This document shows, one piece after another, positions 57,112-62,787 of a DNA stretch of 62,787 bases. The notes below the pieces were generated by a model. That model had not been told where the DNA came from. It ran no database searches and saw only the letters and a list, made by a program, of their open reading frames with translations. A program made the translations under genes and the position numbers. Each line of letters begins with the position of its first letter. The first letter of the stretch is position 1. This stretch comes from Candidatus Siliceabacter maunaloa (GTDB lineage: Bacteria > Actinomycetota > Thermoleophilia > Solirubrobacterales > Solirubrobacteraceae), in NCBI GenBank assembly GCA_024330185.1, contig JANDLV010000019.1, positions 1-62,787 of the forward strand, in the 5' to 3' direction.

Positions 57112-57608
57112 GGACCGTGGAGGCCATCGACGTGTCCGCGCCGGCCCAGGCGGTGTGGAGGGTCATCGCCGACCCCCAGAGCTACCTCCACGTCATGGCC
57201 GGGATCACGCGCTGGGAGGTCAGCGGCGAGCAGCGCCGAGGCGTCGGCGCCCGCTACAAGATGCTCATGCGCGTGCGCTCGGCGGACATCGGCGGGCTGA
57301 TCGAGATCGTCGAGTGGGACGAGCCCACCGAGCTGGCCTGGACGTCGGTCACGGGGCTGGACCAGCGCGGGCGCTGGCGCCTGCGCGAGCGCGTGACACC
57401 GTCCCACCCACCGCGCACCCACGTCGAGCTGCGCCTTAGCTACGGCGTCGCCGGCTCAGGCCTCCCCGGCTGGCTGGCCGAGCACCTCGCCGCGCCCACG
57501 GTGGCCGGCCACCTGCGCACCTCCCTGCGCCAGCTCAAGCGCCGCGTGGAGCACGAGCAGCTCCGCACCGCCGCATCCGCCCGCCGCGAGGCCCGAGCGG
57601 CGACCTGA
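57108..57608 (+). CDS. SRPBCC/polyketide cyclase-like lipid-binding protein
   Basis: 166-residue START/SRPBCC-fold protein: VEAIDVSAPAQAVWRVIADP is the usual opening and the C-terminal helix LAAPTVAGHLRTSLRQLKRR closes the pocket. It presumably binds a hydrophobic molecule handled by the neighbouring hydrolase and acyltransferase. Its start overlaps as ATGA. It is the last gene before the change in base composition. Confidence 0.88.
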   Translation: MRTVEAIDVSAPAQAVWRVIADPQSYLHVMAGITRWEVSGEQRRGVGARYKMLMRVRSADIGGLIEIVEWDEPTELAWTSVTGLDQRGRWRLRERVTPSHPPRTHVELRLSYGVAGSGLPGWLAEHLAAPTVAGHLRTSLRQLKRRVEHEQLRTAASARREARAAT

Positions 57609-57639
57609 GCTGCCGTCCTCCTGCTGTGAGCATCCCCAG

Positions 57640-57677
57640 GGTCCCTTCTCGATCGATAGGTCCCTTCTCGATCGATC
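57640..57677 (+). repeat. 19-bp tandem repeat
   Basis: Two head-to-tail copies of GGTCCCTTCTCGATCGAT plus one base (57640-57658, 57659-57677), each ending in the palindrome TCGATCGA. They lie 31 bp after the SRPBCC gene, at the edge of the compositionally different region; a possible attachment or insertion scar. Confidence 0.7.
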
Positions 57678-57755
57678 ATGGCATCAGCACGCCCTGAGGG
57701 GACCCCGACGAAACCGCCCACGCTGTCACGCCAAGGCCGCTAATGCATCACAACA

Positions 57756-58214
57756 CTAGATCAGACCTCTGCGAGAGAGGTCACGGGCGAGGCAACCTCT
57801 GGGGCTCTTGGGGATTCGCCAGTGCCATGGCGACGCGGCATGGGCGCTGTCCGCATCAGCGCTTCCGTGAAAGGGATGGTTGGCTCGGACGGTCGCGGCC
57901 GTAAACCTCGCGTCGAGAGGGGCGATCCATTGCGACAGCTTCTCCGCAATTTCGTCCGGCGAGGCCTCGATCACCGTCTGTAGGAGCTTGCGTGCATACA
58001 AATCATTCGCGTACTCCTCGACCATCATGTGCTCCGGATACGCCCCCTCCTCGATGGCCTGTACGAGCGACCACCACTCTTGCATCAAGAACCCAGCGGT
58101 CACGAAGTCGGCCCAGCCGCGCTCAGCCTTCTCGTCCGCAACGATACTCTCGACGACAGCGGCCCCATTCGCGCCAAGAACTGTGAGGGGCGTATCCGGC
58201 TCTAAGGGGCGCAC
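57756..58214 (-). CDS. hypothetical protein of the right-end region
   Basis: Unrecognised 152-residue soluble protein, helical in character (TAGFLMQEWWSLVQAIEEG, ANDLYARKLLQTVIEASPDE). Composition is less GC-rich than the core genes. Reading-frame quality is good up to ~residue 115, and the C-terminus is Arg/Ser-rich and may be non-native. Confidence 0.55.
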   Translation of the reverse strand: MRPLEPDTPLTVLGANGAAVVESIVADEKAERGWADFVTAGFLMQEWWSLVQAIEEGAYPEHMMVEEYANDLYARKLLQTVIEASPDEIAEKLSQWIAPLDARFTAATVRANHPFHGSADADSAHAASPWHWRIPKSPRGCLARDLSRRGLI

Positions 58215-58687
58215 TACGCCGAGCCCAGCTCAGGCCCGCACTGGCCGTCGTTGCCAGCCCGTCGCGACGGTGGTTCCACGGAGGGCTCCGTTGTCTTCAA
58301 CCAGTCGATGCGCTAGCTGGTTGAAAGTCAACTCGCGACGGTCGGGACTTTGGCGATCGGTCACGGCTTCGCCAGCCAAATCCTTGTCCCTAGAGCGGCG
58401 AGCTGTTCCTGCCATTCCTCGATAGCGACGCCGCGTCTTCCAAGAGGTCTCGTCGCGGGAGTGCTCGGACGTACTCGTCACCGTTTCCGTCGTAGCCGCG
58501 GACTCGACCACCGTCAACGAGGCAGCGCTACGCATGGAAAGATGGAAAGACCTTCGGTAGCCACCCATACCGTACTGATCGTACGCAGCATTCCCGAGTA
58601 AGTAGGGGGTCCGAGTAAGCCGAGGGTGATTCGCTGCGCGTGGGCGACAGGCCCTTCCGACCAGTCTCGTAGGCCGGCTCCCCCTAA

Positions 58688-58733
58688 CGCATCCGCGTGG
58701 GCATTCTGAGTTGAGAATGCACACGTAGATGCG
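58688..58733. repeat. 46-nt imperfect hairpin, copy 1
   Basis: Arms CGCATC-GCGTG-GCATTCT and AGAATGC-CACGT-GATGCG (single mismatches between blocks) around the loop GAGTTG. It is a direct repeat of 58850-58895 and flanks a 116-nt transposase fragment. Confidence 0.7.
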
Positions 58734-58849
58734 ACCCCTGCGGGCCGGCGCTCCCTCCAGCCCGCCGAGGAAGGCCTCCCAGTCGGGCTGGGACTTGCTC
58801 GTGAACGCCTCCAGGCGCCACAGCGGCGCCCGCCCCGCCGGACGACTAA
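58734..58849 (-). mobile_element. transposase fragment between hairpins
   Basis: On the minus strand this 116-nt piece encodes LWRLEAFTSKSQPDWEAFL and GGLEGAPAR, a segment I associate with IS256/IS1249-like (mutator-type) transposases. It is only ~30 codons; the rest of the transposase is absent. The 58215-58909 interval holds no other convincing gene. Confidence 0.5.
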
Positions 58850-58895
58850 CGCATCCGCGTGTGCAATCTGAAACCAGAATGCCCACGTCGATGCG
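58850..58895. repeat. 46-nt imperfect hairpin, copy 2
   Basis: Same length and orientation as copy 1, with arms CGCATC-GCGTG-GCAATCT and AGAATGC-CACGT-GATGCG and loop GAAACC. Most changes fall in loop or mismatch positions, so the stem is kept. Confidence 0.7.
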
Positions 58896-58909
58896 TTTGG
58901 GGCGCCGGC

Positions 58910-59407
58910 TTAGCTCGTCGTCGACGTCGAGCATTCGTCTTCGAAGTATTGCCGTCCGGCGATTGGCCTGAACATATTTTCAATCCAGTTGGACGGAACA
59001 ACTAAAAACGATTCTCTCACCGGATCCCAAAACAATTCTGAGGCATAGCCGTAGTCATCTATCCGAATACAGTAATTGGGCCCCTCTGTATCGGTTTCCG
59101 CCACGACATGTTCCGCCAACTCGCAGTATCGCGGTTCGGTGAGATCAGGATATTCGGACTTGTGTTTCTCATATTTCTCGGGGCACCTCCCTGGGAGCCA
59201 CTCAGTCTCGTCGGAGCCGCCGCCGCCGAGATTGTGGCCGTCCATGTGGCAGGCGTACGCCGTCCAGCTGCCAGCGGCGACCTCGGCCCCGGCTGGGTTC
59301 TGGGACGTAGTCGGGCACAAGTGTTCGCCCTGCCCGACTCCCGCTGGCACTACAAACACGAGTAGAGCTGCCAGCAGCGCTGACAGAAGCAGCCTCTTGG
59401 TGGGCAT
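58910..59407 (-). CDS. secreted Cys-rich hypothetical protein
   Basis: 165-residue exported protein. Signal peptide LLLSALLAALLVFVVPAG is followed by a mature part with seven Cys (in HLCPTTSQ, AYACHMDGH, PGRCPEKY, RYCELAEH, NYCIRIDDYG, DECSTS and others), suggesting disulfides. AAGGGAAG precedes ATG 59407. No known family. The gene is less GC-rich than the core. Confidence 0.72.
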   Translation of the reverse strand: MPTKRLLLSALLAALLVFVVPAGVGQGEHLCPTTSQNPAGAEVAAGSWTAYACHMDGHNLGGGGSDETEWLPGRCPEKYEKHKSEYPDLTEPRYCELAEHVVAETDTEGPNYCIRIDDYGYASELFWDPVRESFLVVPSNWIENMFRPIAGRQYFEDECSTSTTS

Positions 59408-59801
59408 GTGGCTTCCCTTTAGTGAGTGCGCCGGCGCCTCTCCAGTGAGTGCTCGACGCTACTGTTAGCGTCGCGCATACTACAAGGCGGACAGGCGGTT
59501 TGCAAGCCCGCCCGCTGCTGAAAGGGGCTCGCCGGACGGAAACGAAATGCCGCACGATTCGCGATGTGCCCCCACCGATACGACATACGACGCCCGTCAG
59601 GCAAATTTCGCCTCGCTGCACTACACGCTGAGCTCTCGGTCCCCCGACGAAGCGGAGCGCGCCGGCGGGGGCACCTTCGGCCGCCGCATGAGAGCGTCGT
59701 CACGACCGCCATGGGCGGCCCGCGACCCAGCGCACCATGTCCGAGGCGCCACGTACAATCCACTACGTCAAGCCAACCTGTGTCCACCCAAACGGGGTCC
59801 A
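59408..59801. other. 394-nt stretch without a convincing gene
   Basis: Open frames here are short, Arg/Cys/Ser-rich and without ribosome sites on either strand. It separates the divergent Cys-rich and HupE-like genes and must carry both promoters; I see no clear motif. Confidence 0.5.
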
Positions 59802-60413
59802 GTGATACGTCAAATTGTACAAGACGCCTTCATGGTGGCGCACGTTGTTCGTCTTGAGGTTGCGGATTATCTCGAGCTGGGGATCGAGCATATTTTGGGC
59901 GGCCCCGACCACATATTGTTCGTGCTGTCGCTGCTCTTGGCGTTCCAGTCGATACGGAAGGTCCTGCATCTCACGCTCACGTTTACCGCGGCGCACAGCG
60001 TAACGTTGCTGTTGGCGGGCTCCGGGGTGCTGCTTGTGACGTCGCGAATTGTGGAGCCGGTGATCGCTTTCTCAATCGCGTTCATGGCGCTCACCGCCGT
60101 CTTCGCGCCCCAAGGTCGTCTACTGGTGAGGGCCCGCACCAAGGTGGGCATTGTGTTCTTCTTCGGGCTCTTTCACGGGCTCGGGTTTGCCAACGCTCTT
60201 GAGCAGAGCGAGTTGGAGCACAACCTCGTCTTGTCCCTACTCTTGTTCAACGTTGGCGTCGAGTTGGGACTAGCCGGAATCCTCGCTGTGGTGGTGCCGC
60301 TCATTCTCGTGGTCCGGCGCACGGACTGGTACGAGAGCGCTGTCCAGGTGTCGGCGCTGACCATCGGGGCGGTGGGTGTAGCGTGGGGTTTGCAAAGAAT
60401 CGGCTTGGGCTAG
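59802..60413 (+). CDS. HupE/UreJ-2-like membrane protein
   Basis: 203-residue integral membrane protein with about six helices. Family motifs: LGIEHILGGPDHILFVLSLL, FTAAHSVTLLLAG, GLFHGLGFANALEQ and FNVGVELGLAG. Conserved His and Asp in the helices fit nickel/cobalt permease-like HupE/UreJ proteins, though the HupE_UreJ_2 group is uncharacterised. Start is uncertain: GTG 59802 or ATG 59832, neither with a strong ribosome site. Confidence 0.78.
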   Translation: MIRQIVQDAFMVAHVVRLEVADYLELGIEHILGGPDHILFVLSLLLAFQSIRKVLHLTLTFTAAHSVTLLLAGSGVLLVTSRIVEPVIAFSIAFMALTAVFAPQGRLLVRARTKVGIVFFFGLFHGLGFANALEQSELEHNLVLSLLLFNVGVELGLAGILAVVVPLILVVRRTDWYESAVQVSALTIGAVGVAWGLQRIGLG

Positions 60414-60579
60414 CCCGGATCGTGCATCAAGCTGGGGCGGGAGACCGGATGACGTTAGATGTGGTGGCTTTCTGTGATCGGTCGTTCGTGTGGAAGTCAT
60501 CGCAGGGGCGGCGTGATGGTGAGCTTGCAGCAGAGGTAGCGTACGGGTGGAGATCGAAATCCGGCTCACCTTCTATCGA

Positions 60580-61137
60580 TCAATCCTCGCCGTAGAAGTT
60601 CGCGGGAATGGGTCGACATTCGCTTCGGGCGCCCCACGCATCTCGGTCCCGCTCCCGTCGAAGCCGATCGGGCGGTCTCGAGCCAGGGCGGAACTGGCGC
60701 GCACCATCCGTAACTCGCCGGTTGCCGAGCCGTTCACCGATGCGAACTTGTAAGCAGAAGTCAGTCGCTTGGGTTGTCTGTGGGTCGCTGGGGTCGGTTT
60801 GTATCACAGTCACACGTACTGTCTCAGCAGTACGCATCACCGCGACACGCTTGATATCCGCGCCACCGCCCGTGCTGGTCTCGATGCGCATTTCGCTGGT
60901 ATCGGGGCCTGCTTGCACAGTTGCGAACCGGTTGCGAAGCTCGCCGTCCGCTATGTCGGCTGACGTACTGGGGACGGTCACCAGGAGAGCGACCGCGACC
61001 AGCAGCACCGCGCTTCCCCCAATCGCCTCACCCGCCGAGCAACGTTGCAAGGCCGGCCGTGAGCCGTGGCCTTGTCGCAGATCACTCGCAAGTGGGCACC
61101 CGGTCCGTGCCGAACCGTTCAATCGGATGCGTCTCAT
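60580..61137 (-). CDS. exported single-repeat protein of the VGPDTSELR family, member 1
   Basis: 185-residue protein. A hydrophobic export segment (GGSAVLLVAVALLVTVPSTSA) is followed by one copy (60583-60927) of a ~115-residue unit: VQAGPDTSEMR, KRVAVMRT, FCLQVRIGERLGNRRVTD, RRERDRDAW, ECRPIPANFYGED. Each unit holds two Cys. I know no family for it. It lies on the same strand as two related genes that follow toward the window end. Confidence 0.7.
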   Translation of the reverse strand: MRRIRLNGSARTGCPLASDLRQGHGSRPALQRCSAGEAIGGSAVLLVAVALLVTVPSTSADIADGELRNRFATVQAGPDTSEMRIETSTGGGADIKRVAVMRTAETVRVTVIQTDPSDPQTTQATDFCLQVRIGERLGNRRVTDGARQFRPGSRPPDRLRRERDRDAWGARSECRPIPANFYGED

Positions 61138-61324
61138 CGGTCGTCCAGCGGACCGCGCGGCGAACTGGAGCCACCCGCCGACTGCTGTCTAGCCCCTGGA
61201 GGGCCCCGTTCTTCGGTCCACTGACCGTGAAAGCCGAGTAGGTGTAGGACCAGCACGGTACTCGAACCAGTATGTCGCGCGACTGTCGCGTTGGGGCGGC
61301 ACGACGTTACTCATGCTCAGTCAC

Positions 61325-62196
61325 TCAGTCCTCGCCGTAGAAGTTCACCGGCACCGACCGACATCCCGGCTCTGCGGCCCAGGCGCGTGGGTCGCGTTCG
61401 CGGCGAAAGCGCAACGTGCGGAACCCAGGGTCCGAGGCCGCATCGACGATGCGCCTGTCGCCCACCCGCTGCCCGATGCGGATATCCACACAGTGAAAGC
61501 GCGCTCCGGTGGTCTCCGCTACTCCAGGACGGACCGGACTGTTGTCGGTCGCGACGAGCTTGATTTGCACAGATGCTCTCGTGCGACGCACCGCGGCACG
61601 CTTGATCCGATCGGCGGTTCCCGTGATCGCTCCCACGCGCAACTCGCTGGTGTCCGGTCCCACCTGCGCTGTCTCAATGCTCCCCCGTGCTTCTCGTGCG
61701 CCGTCGAAGTTGGCAGGGACGCGACGGCATGCCCCGGGGGCGTTCCACACGCGCGGGTCAGGCTCACGGCGAAGCCGCCGCGGAGGCGGTGCCTCGGCAC
61801 TCAACCAGCGAGCACCGTCGTCGACGACGCGTTGGCCGAGTCGCTCGCCGATACGCACCGTCACGCAGAATGGCGCCGAATCGCGGGGCTCCCCATCCGC
61901 CGGCCTGCTCTCCACGAGGGTGATCCGTACCGCGCTGCTAAAGCGCCGCACGGCGACACGCTCGATCCGAGCGCCCGCTTGCATAGTGCCAGCGATGCGC
62001 AACTCACTTGTGTCGGGACCCACCTGCACAGTGTCGAACGTGCGAGGCGCTCCCGCTCGTGCCCGTGACCGAGTGCGCTTGGCCCCAGCACCGTCGCCAT
62101 CGCCAAGGCGGCGATGCTCAAAACGACGCTGCGCCTGGTGCAGCCACCGCGAACGCGCTGCGAGGCCCTCGCGTTCACGAACCCGCCCGCACACAA
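61325..62196 (-). pseudogene. two-repeat protein of the VGPDTSELR family, member 2, signal peptide out of frame
   Basis: The repeat frame holds two units: copy A (61700-62038, FDTVQVGPDTSELR ... CRRVPANFDG) and copy B (61328-61678, IETAQVGPDTSELR ... VPVNFYGED) joined by a 7-residue linker. A good signal peptide, RRSVVLSIAALAMATVLG, is encoded just upstream from ATG 62196 but in another frame, so one base change near 62045-62090 disconnects it. Read only in the repeat frame, the N-terminus is Arg-rich and unlikely. It may be a decayed gene or an assembly slip. Confidence 0.6.
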
Positions 62197-62329
62197 GTCG
62201 GGACGCCACTCGTGCCGCTCATCGCCGTGTCACCAACGTCAAATCGCTTCGACCTAGTGCAAAAGTGGCTATCGAAATCTGCGTGTAGGATGCGCCATCA
62301 CCTTCACGATTGCACGCCGGAGTCGCGCC

Positions 62330-62353
62330 CACCTGGGCACCTGGGCACCTGGG
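62330..62353. repeat. 8-bp tandem repeat
   Basis: Three copies of CACCTGGG in a row, just downstream of the third repeat-family gene. It is a simple slippage repeat in the spacer. Confidence 0.7.
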
Positions 62354-62376
62354 CACGGTCTGTTACTCACGCTCAC

Positions 62377-62787
62377 TCAGTCCTCGCCATAGAAGTTCAC
62401 CGGTACCGGCCGACATCCCGGCTCGGCGGCCCAGGCGCGTGGGTCGCGTTCGCGGCGAAGGCGAAACGCGCGGAACTCAGGCTCCAAGAACGCATCGATG
62501 ATGCGCCTGTCGCCCACCCGCTGCCCGATGCGGATCTCCACACAGTGAAAGAGCGCTTCGGTGGTCCTTGCTTCTCCAGGCCGGACCGGATTGTTGTCGG
62601 TCGCGACGAGCGTGATTCGCACAGCTCCTCTTGTCCGACGCACCGCGGCACGCTTGATCCGATCGCCGCCTCCCGTGATCCCTCTCACGCGTAACTCGCT
62701 GGTGTCCGGTCCCACGCGCGCTGTCTCGAAGTTGTAGGCGGTCACGGGGTGTCGTGGTCGCGCTAGGGATTCCTTTGTGTGAGTTGG
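62377..62787 (-). CDS. VGPDTSELR-family protein, member 3, partial at window end
   Basis: One full unit (62380-62730): FETARVGPDTSELRV, KRAAVRRT, FHCVEIRIGQRVGDRRIID, RRERDPRAWAAEPGC, VPVNFYGED. The frame stays open to the window edge (upstream residues include KESLARPRHPVTAYN), so more units or a signal peptide probably lie outside. At DNA level 62371-62730 is a close duplicate of 61321-61679. Confidence 0.7.
   Translation of the reverse strand, partial: PTHTKESLARPRHPVTAYNFETARVGPDTSELRVRGITGGGDRIKRAAVRRTRGAVRITLVATDNNPVRPGEARTTEALFHCVEIRIGQRVGDRRIIDAFLEPEFRAFRLRRERDPRAWAAEPGCRPVPVNFYGED

Follow-up and report, generated by a model that had tools for sequence, protein, structure and literature searches.

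The four repeat units encoded at the right end of the window, that is, the whole of contig G000:C32 (62787 bp, from a draft assembly of 3.79 Mb in 120 contigs), appear from profile comparisons to be far-diverged members of a widespread, unnamed extracytoplasmic domain of Actinomycetota and Chloroflexota. This domain behind the repeat, which has no Pfam or NCBIfam entry, is the main yield of the analysis, while the unit cluster represents nothing more unusual than a lineage-specific expansion. The cluster is probably best explained as binding modules with a beta-sandwich fold, secreted and locally expanded, that diverged from the widespread domain and are held under weak constraint.

The four related units, each of ~118 residues, lie on the minus strand and are split 1/2/1 over three open frames, with the gene order in the direction of transcription being U4, U3+U2 and U1. 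The U4 open frame (62377..62787) has its start off the contig and is cut at 62787; it contains U4 (62377..62736), a unit of the B type. The two-unit gene (61325..62209; an open frame of 294 aa from a GTG) encodes a tandem pair, with U3 (61685..62044; A type) as its N-terminal member and U2 (61325..61684; B type), a near-copy of U4, as its C-terminal one. The U1 gene (60580..61137; 185 aa from an ATG) encodes an in-frame leader followed by a single domain of the A type, U1 (60580..60933). The original prediction of four copies in three genes is thus borne out: the units could be located, all four agree at 37 of about 119 positions, and their likeness is not a matter of chance, because the local alignment score of every pair exceeds that of shuffled sequences by 32 to 78 standard deviations. 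No further unit was found in the rest of the 3.79 Mb assembly, barring a single and very remote candidate, which is a lipoprotein encoded on another contig of the host genome (L096 2376-2936, plus strand; G000:C13 near 86633; E 0.003).

In a phylogenetic tree the units form a single clade (support 99/98) that splits into U1+U3 and U2+U4. Judged by this topology, duplication within the lineage appears to have given the A type (U1, U3) and the B type (U2, U4), of which the latter was copied again recently. The by-eye estimate of ~87% DNA likeness between 61321-61679 and 62371-62730 proved close, with 320 of 361 alignment columns identical (88.6%), and the recent duplication drawn from it holds: U2 and U4 proper are identical at 315 of 357 nucleotides (88.2%) with no gaps. 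This likeness spans exactly one unit and ends sharply at both flanks. The frame directly upstream of U4 is unlike the end of U3 and, therefore, U4 does not simply belong to a duplicate of the entire U3-U2 gene.

The U1 gene carries the sole in-frame export signal visible among the three genes, a leader whose hydrophobic core, AVLLVAVALLVTV (residues 43-55), was recognized by hydropathy and is in frame with the domain. Three-frame translation and hydropathy also reveal a leader-like stretch, TRRSVVLSIAALAMATVLGPSALG, in the two-unit gene (62060..62196, minus strand), in a frame that differs from that of U3 and U2. The frame shift falls at about 62040-62075, and the codon-position GC pattern changes frame near 62040; the displacement may be either an error of the draft assembly or real. 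The 5' end of the U4 gene lies past 62787, where the contig ends. Neither the leader of U1 nor the out-of-frame one of the two-unit gene contains a lipobox. The secretion claimed by the original prediction is probable in the case of U1, as it is for the closest outside relative described below, while the products of the two-unit and U4 genes, for which no in-frame leader is visible in the contig, are presumed to be exported.

Searches of the established libraries leave the units without a name. Against Pfam they match no family at E values up to 5, and against NCBIfam, PHROGs, PADLOC and the sequences of the PDB they obtain only chance-level scores; an Rfam search was likewise negative. An NCBIfam match to ribosomal protein L23 (E 0.006) was rejected as chance, as was a match in G028 that reads through five stops. 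Single-sequence searches against relatives, plasmids and phages, together with narrow-profile scans of viral and genome contigs, yielded no convincing relative outside the genome, and a virus or plasmid origin of the units is unsupported by the phage, plasmid, viral-contig and PHROGs searches. A literature search on the host lineage returned nothing. That the family is unrecognized therefore stands in the sense that no match to a known domain exists in the family libraries searched; it does not stand in the sense of an isolated family, for the units belong to a widespread domain that is uncatalogued.

Only broader profiles reached relatives outside the host genome. A profile built from the four units, the check proposed with the original prediction, finds distant proteins in the same order; most of its matches with E over 1e-3 were, where inspected, known enzymes or non-coding frames and were discarded. 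A family profile that includes the units gives matches in 37 of the 399 genomes sampled from the class and in 59 of the 396 from the phylum, or about 1/7 of the latter, the host genome being counted and the threshold being inclusive (E up to 0.01 per genome), such that some weak matches will be chance; the domain additionally occurs in Chloroflexota. Since the units themselves helped build this profile, the reverse test was made with A3, a profile of 21 outside members and zero window sequences. Run against the whole host genome, A3 recovers exactly the four units and nothing else, with E values of 8.2e-9 (U4), 1.8e-7 (U2), 1.2e-5 (U1) and 6.4e-5 (U3), a test that is not fully independent in that the outside members were first reached through a window profile. 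Profile-profile comparison of the units with the outside members using hhalign gives a probability of 95.6 and an E value of 1.1e-8, at a low pairwise identity of about 11-33%.

The outside members carry a strong motif of their own, WSGVEPCxVLDxV...VTVTLxEG...ACIEIA...LxxPLGxRxVVDGA, and match no entry above cut-off in Pfam or NCBIfam; a match of one of them to Pfam DUF6286 (E 0.001) fell below the cut-off and was rejected as chance. Scanning the genome collection with this motif recovered 36 named loci from Microbispora, Sphaerisporangium, Planotetraspora, Streptosporangium and other Streptosporangiaceae, as well as from metagenome-assembled genomes of Actinomycetota and Chloroflexota. Most outside members are lipoproteins in which a hydrophobic leader and a lipobox cysteine precede a Ser/Pro/Gly-rich linker, and the domain itself forms the C-terminus: an automatic pattern detects the lipobox in 19 of the 36 loci, and by eye it is present in nearly all except L108 and L141. 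Outside this set, L095 also lacks one. The cysteine pair that is frequent but not universal in the family, in GVEPC and ACI, is absent from the units, whose cysteines lie elsewhere, and for this reason they are placed, on alignment, as a putative divergent branch. In five Streptosporangiaceae loci (L110, L115, L118, L123 and L128) an Hsp70/DnaK-type gene lies directly downstream of the domain lipoprotein, its identity as HSP70 being confirmed for L110, and several of these loci have an ABC-transporter ATPase-like gene on the opposite side. A profile of the domain would annotate many hypothetical lipoproteins, including this one directly upstream of dnaK. Within the host's own taxonomic family, L014, L034 and L042 (genomes G206, G138 and G012) are much larger domain-containing proteins of 523 to over 700 aa, some with several copies of the domain interspersed with other modules. 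To our knowledge, no ligand or phenotype has been described for any member of the domain.

A smaller set of outside proteins, which belong to the same order but to another of its families (G043 C1, G043 C13 and G060 C62; loci L095, L094 and L097), possesses both of the unit cysteines. These two cysteines are invariant in the four units and in these three proteins, which also share with the units an arginine-rich stretch before the second cysteine. The unit clade has its C-terminal extension and second cysteine in common with other proteins of the order. In the closest outside relative, L016/L095, a signal peptide is clearly recognizable and a lipobox is absent; the order thus includes a two-cysteine form that is secreted. 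Profile A4 scores L095, L094 and L097 with E values of 1.7e-27 to 2.1e-37, although A4 contains those three and the scores are not independent.

The AlphaFold2 models of U1 (pLDDT 89.2, pTM 0.82) and of the Sphaerisporangium domain of L110 as an outside member (pLDDT 92.0, pTM 0.82) both present seven strands in an identical order, with U1 having in addition a strand, a short helix and a further strand at its C-terminus. As the alignment used for U1 held outside sequences, and as strand order was compared without direct superposition, this agreement is supportive rather than independent. The two unit cysteines are probably joined by a disulphide. Foldseek returned no PDB match better than E 0.6 for either model, and nothing with E under 0.3 from the PDB and viral models taken together. 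In the VIA comparison 4pqx (NigD-like), 5bmt and 3nqi ranked first or close to it for each of the two models, at Z scores of 2.9 to 4.6: U1 matched 4pqx at Z 4.4 (rmsd 3.5 over 90 residues), while L110 matched 5bmt at Z 4.6 (3.2 over 79) and 4pqx at Z 4.3 (3.7 over 86). Such PDB matches, with Z under 5, are uninformative on function. The shared strand order of U1 and L110 bears on whether the units might constitute a truly isolated new family confined to the host lineage. The single-sequence searches, with no convincing score outside the host genome, would agree with such isolation; nonetheless, the recovery of all four units by the outside-only profile largely refutes it, and together with the predicted strand order leaves it barely tenable.

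The units are housed in a low-GC stretch (57500..62787; 63.8% GC versus 73.4% in the rest of the contig). Across the rest of the contig the lowest 1-kb window has 66.8% GC, whereas the last 5.3 kb are sharply lower and sparse in genes. A same-genus genome (87% complete) has neither the units nor the adjacent HupE/UreJ gene, and does have a relative of the acyltransferase encoded further inside the contig; the low-GC unit DNA is also missing from most relatives. The drop in GC and the absence from the same-genus genome fit accessory DNA, which the stretch is likely to be. At its start is a tandem 19-bp direct repeat, GGTCCCTTCTCGATCGATA (57640-57677), whose second copy has one mismatch and which occurs nowhere else in the window. 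The stretch also encodes a 165-aa secreted, cysteine-containing protein (58910-59407, minus strand; GC 57.4%), which has a strong leader and matches nothing in the family libraries, and a HupE/UreJ_2-family membrane protein (59547-60413, plus strand; E 1.7e-38) that adjoins the units.

Selection on the copies was gauged from the young U2/U4 pair, for which dN is 0.122 and dS 0.111. With dN/dS about 1, the two have diverged without strong purifying selection, under either relaxed or diversifying selection, and their replacement changes show no significant depletion at conserved columns (p 0.12). Near-neutral divergence of this kind also fits decay, in which the units would be functionless accessory paralogues drifting neutrally, with the two-unit gene already broken in frame. 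The ratio of about 1.1, a leader that is out of frame with the domains in the two-unit gene, and the lack of the low-GC stretch in one same-genus genome and nearly all relatives are as decay would have them. However, each of the four domains is encoded by a frame that stays open from end to end, the 37 invariant positions, both cysteines among them, are kept, the codon-position GC bias is maintained, and the single frame displacement may be an artefact of the draft assembly. We regard decay as a serious rival to the expansion, albeit an unlikely one.

The equal rates of replacement and silent change per site in the U2/U4 pair, and the presence of several copies, could also be read as a surface-variation locus, whose exported copies would vary or switch and thereby alter the cell surface, as the original prediction had suggested. 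The sole feature that might vary is a perfect 8-bp repeat, CACCTGGG, present in 3.4 copies (62330..62356) between U4 and the two-unit gene, upstream of the latter and unique in the assembly. Yet 3.4 copies is a small number, the genome has just the four units, no lipobox, sortase or S-layer anchor motif was seen in the three unit genes, and neither homopolymer or repeat tracts in their coding parts nor inverted repeats were found. The suggestion of surface variation consequently finds little here to sustain it, and we consider it very unlikely. Small secreted beta proteins often act as protease inhibitors, and the units might accordingly be disulphide-bound peptidase inhibitors that block extracellular proteases; at the locus of the closest outside relative the next gene encodes a subtilase (L095 3428-4852; Peptidase_S8, E 2e-52). 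This protease neighbor is, however, confined to one locus in one genome; the tested neighbors of that genome's second copy and of the G060 relative are not proteases, and no structural match to inhibitors rises above noise. The inhibitor role is no more than a lead, and a rather improbable one. A bolder combination, in which the domain, freed from its lipoprotein anchor, became a set of diversifying secreted binding domains under positive selection, possibly inhibiting extracellular enzymes of rivals or of the host itself, with the 8-bp repeat tuning expression, is highly speculative and most improbable.

The preferred reading, a local expansion of secreted binding modules, can be set out as follows. 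The widespread domain would be a seven-strand beta-sandwich of ~90 residues that usually occurs once per lipoprotein, as its C-terminal, cell-exposed portion following a Ser/Pro-rich linker. In the host lineage the domain would lack the lipid anchor and bear a C-terminal extension of ~35 residues with a second cysteine and a probable disulphide, and would have been duplicated into the A and B types within the accessory low-GC stretch. Once exported, the proteins are predicted to serve, outside the membrane, as small modules that bind a ligand, an envelope polymer or a partner protein; the strands and the disulphide would form a scaffold, and contacts would be made through the variable loops, while the copies diverge under weak constraint. 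The homology, the predicted fold, the duplication, the clade structure and the near-neutral divergence of the young pair come directly from the comparisons above; the binding role is proposed from the position of the family on lipoproteins and behind linkers.

Three points of comparison situate the units among known proteins. The closest branch is formed by L095, L094 and L097, which like the units have both cysteines at the same sites and an RRxERD-type extension, but differ in having one unit per gene, in being dispersed, and in being only about 22-33% identical to U1. Another is the unnamed lipoprotein domain proper (L107-L142), mostly in single-domain lipoproteins with the motif WWSGVEPCxVLDxV ... 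VTVTLxEG ... ACIEIA ... LxxPLGxRxVVDGA: it has seven predicted strands in an order equal to that of the units, ~80 alignable residues and a shared extracytoplasmic location, whereas the units have no lipobox, bear their cysteines at other sites, and add a C-terminal extension and tandem copies. Finally, the C-terminal sandwich of NigD-like and related lipoproteins of Bacteroides and Parabacteroides (4pqx, 5bmt, 3nqi) matches nearly the whole domain of both models, although with Z scores of only 2.9 to 4.6, an identity of 4-10% and no sequence-profile match; this resemblance between models and structures is too weak for a claimed relation and may merely reflect a common arrangement of strands.
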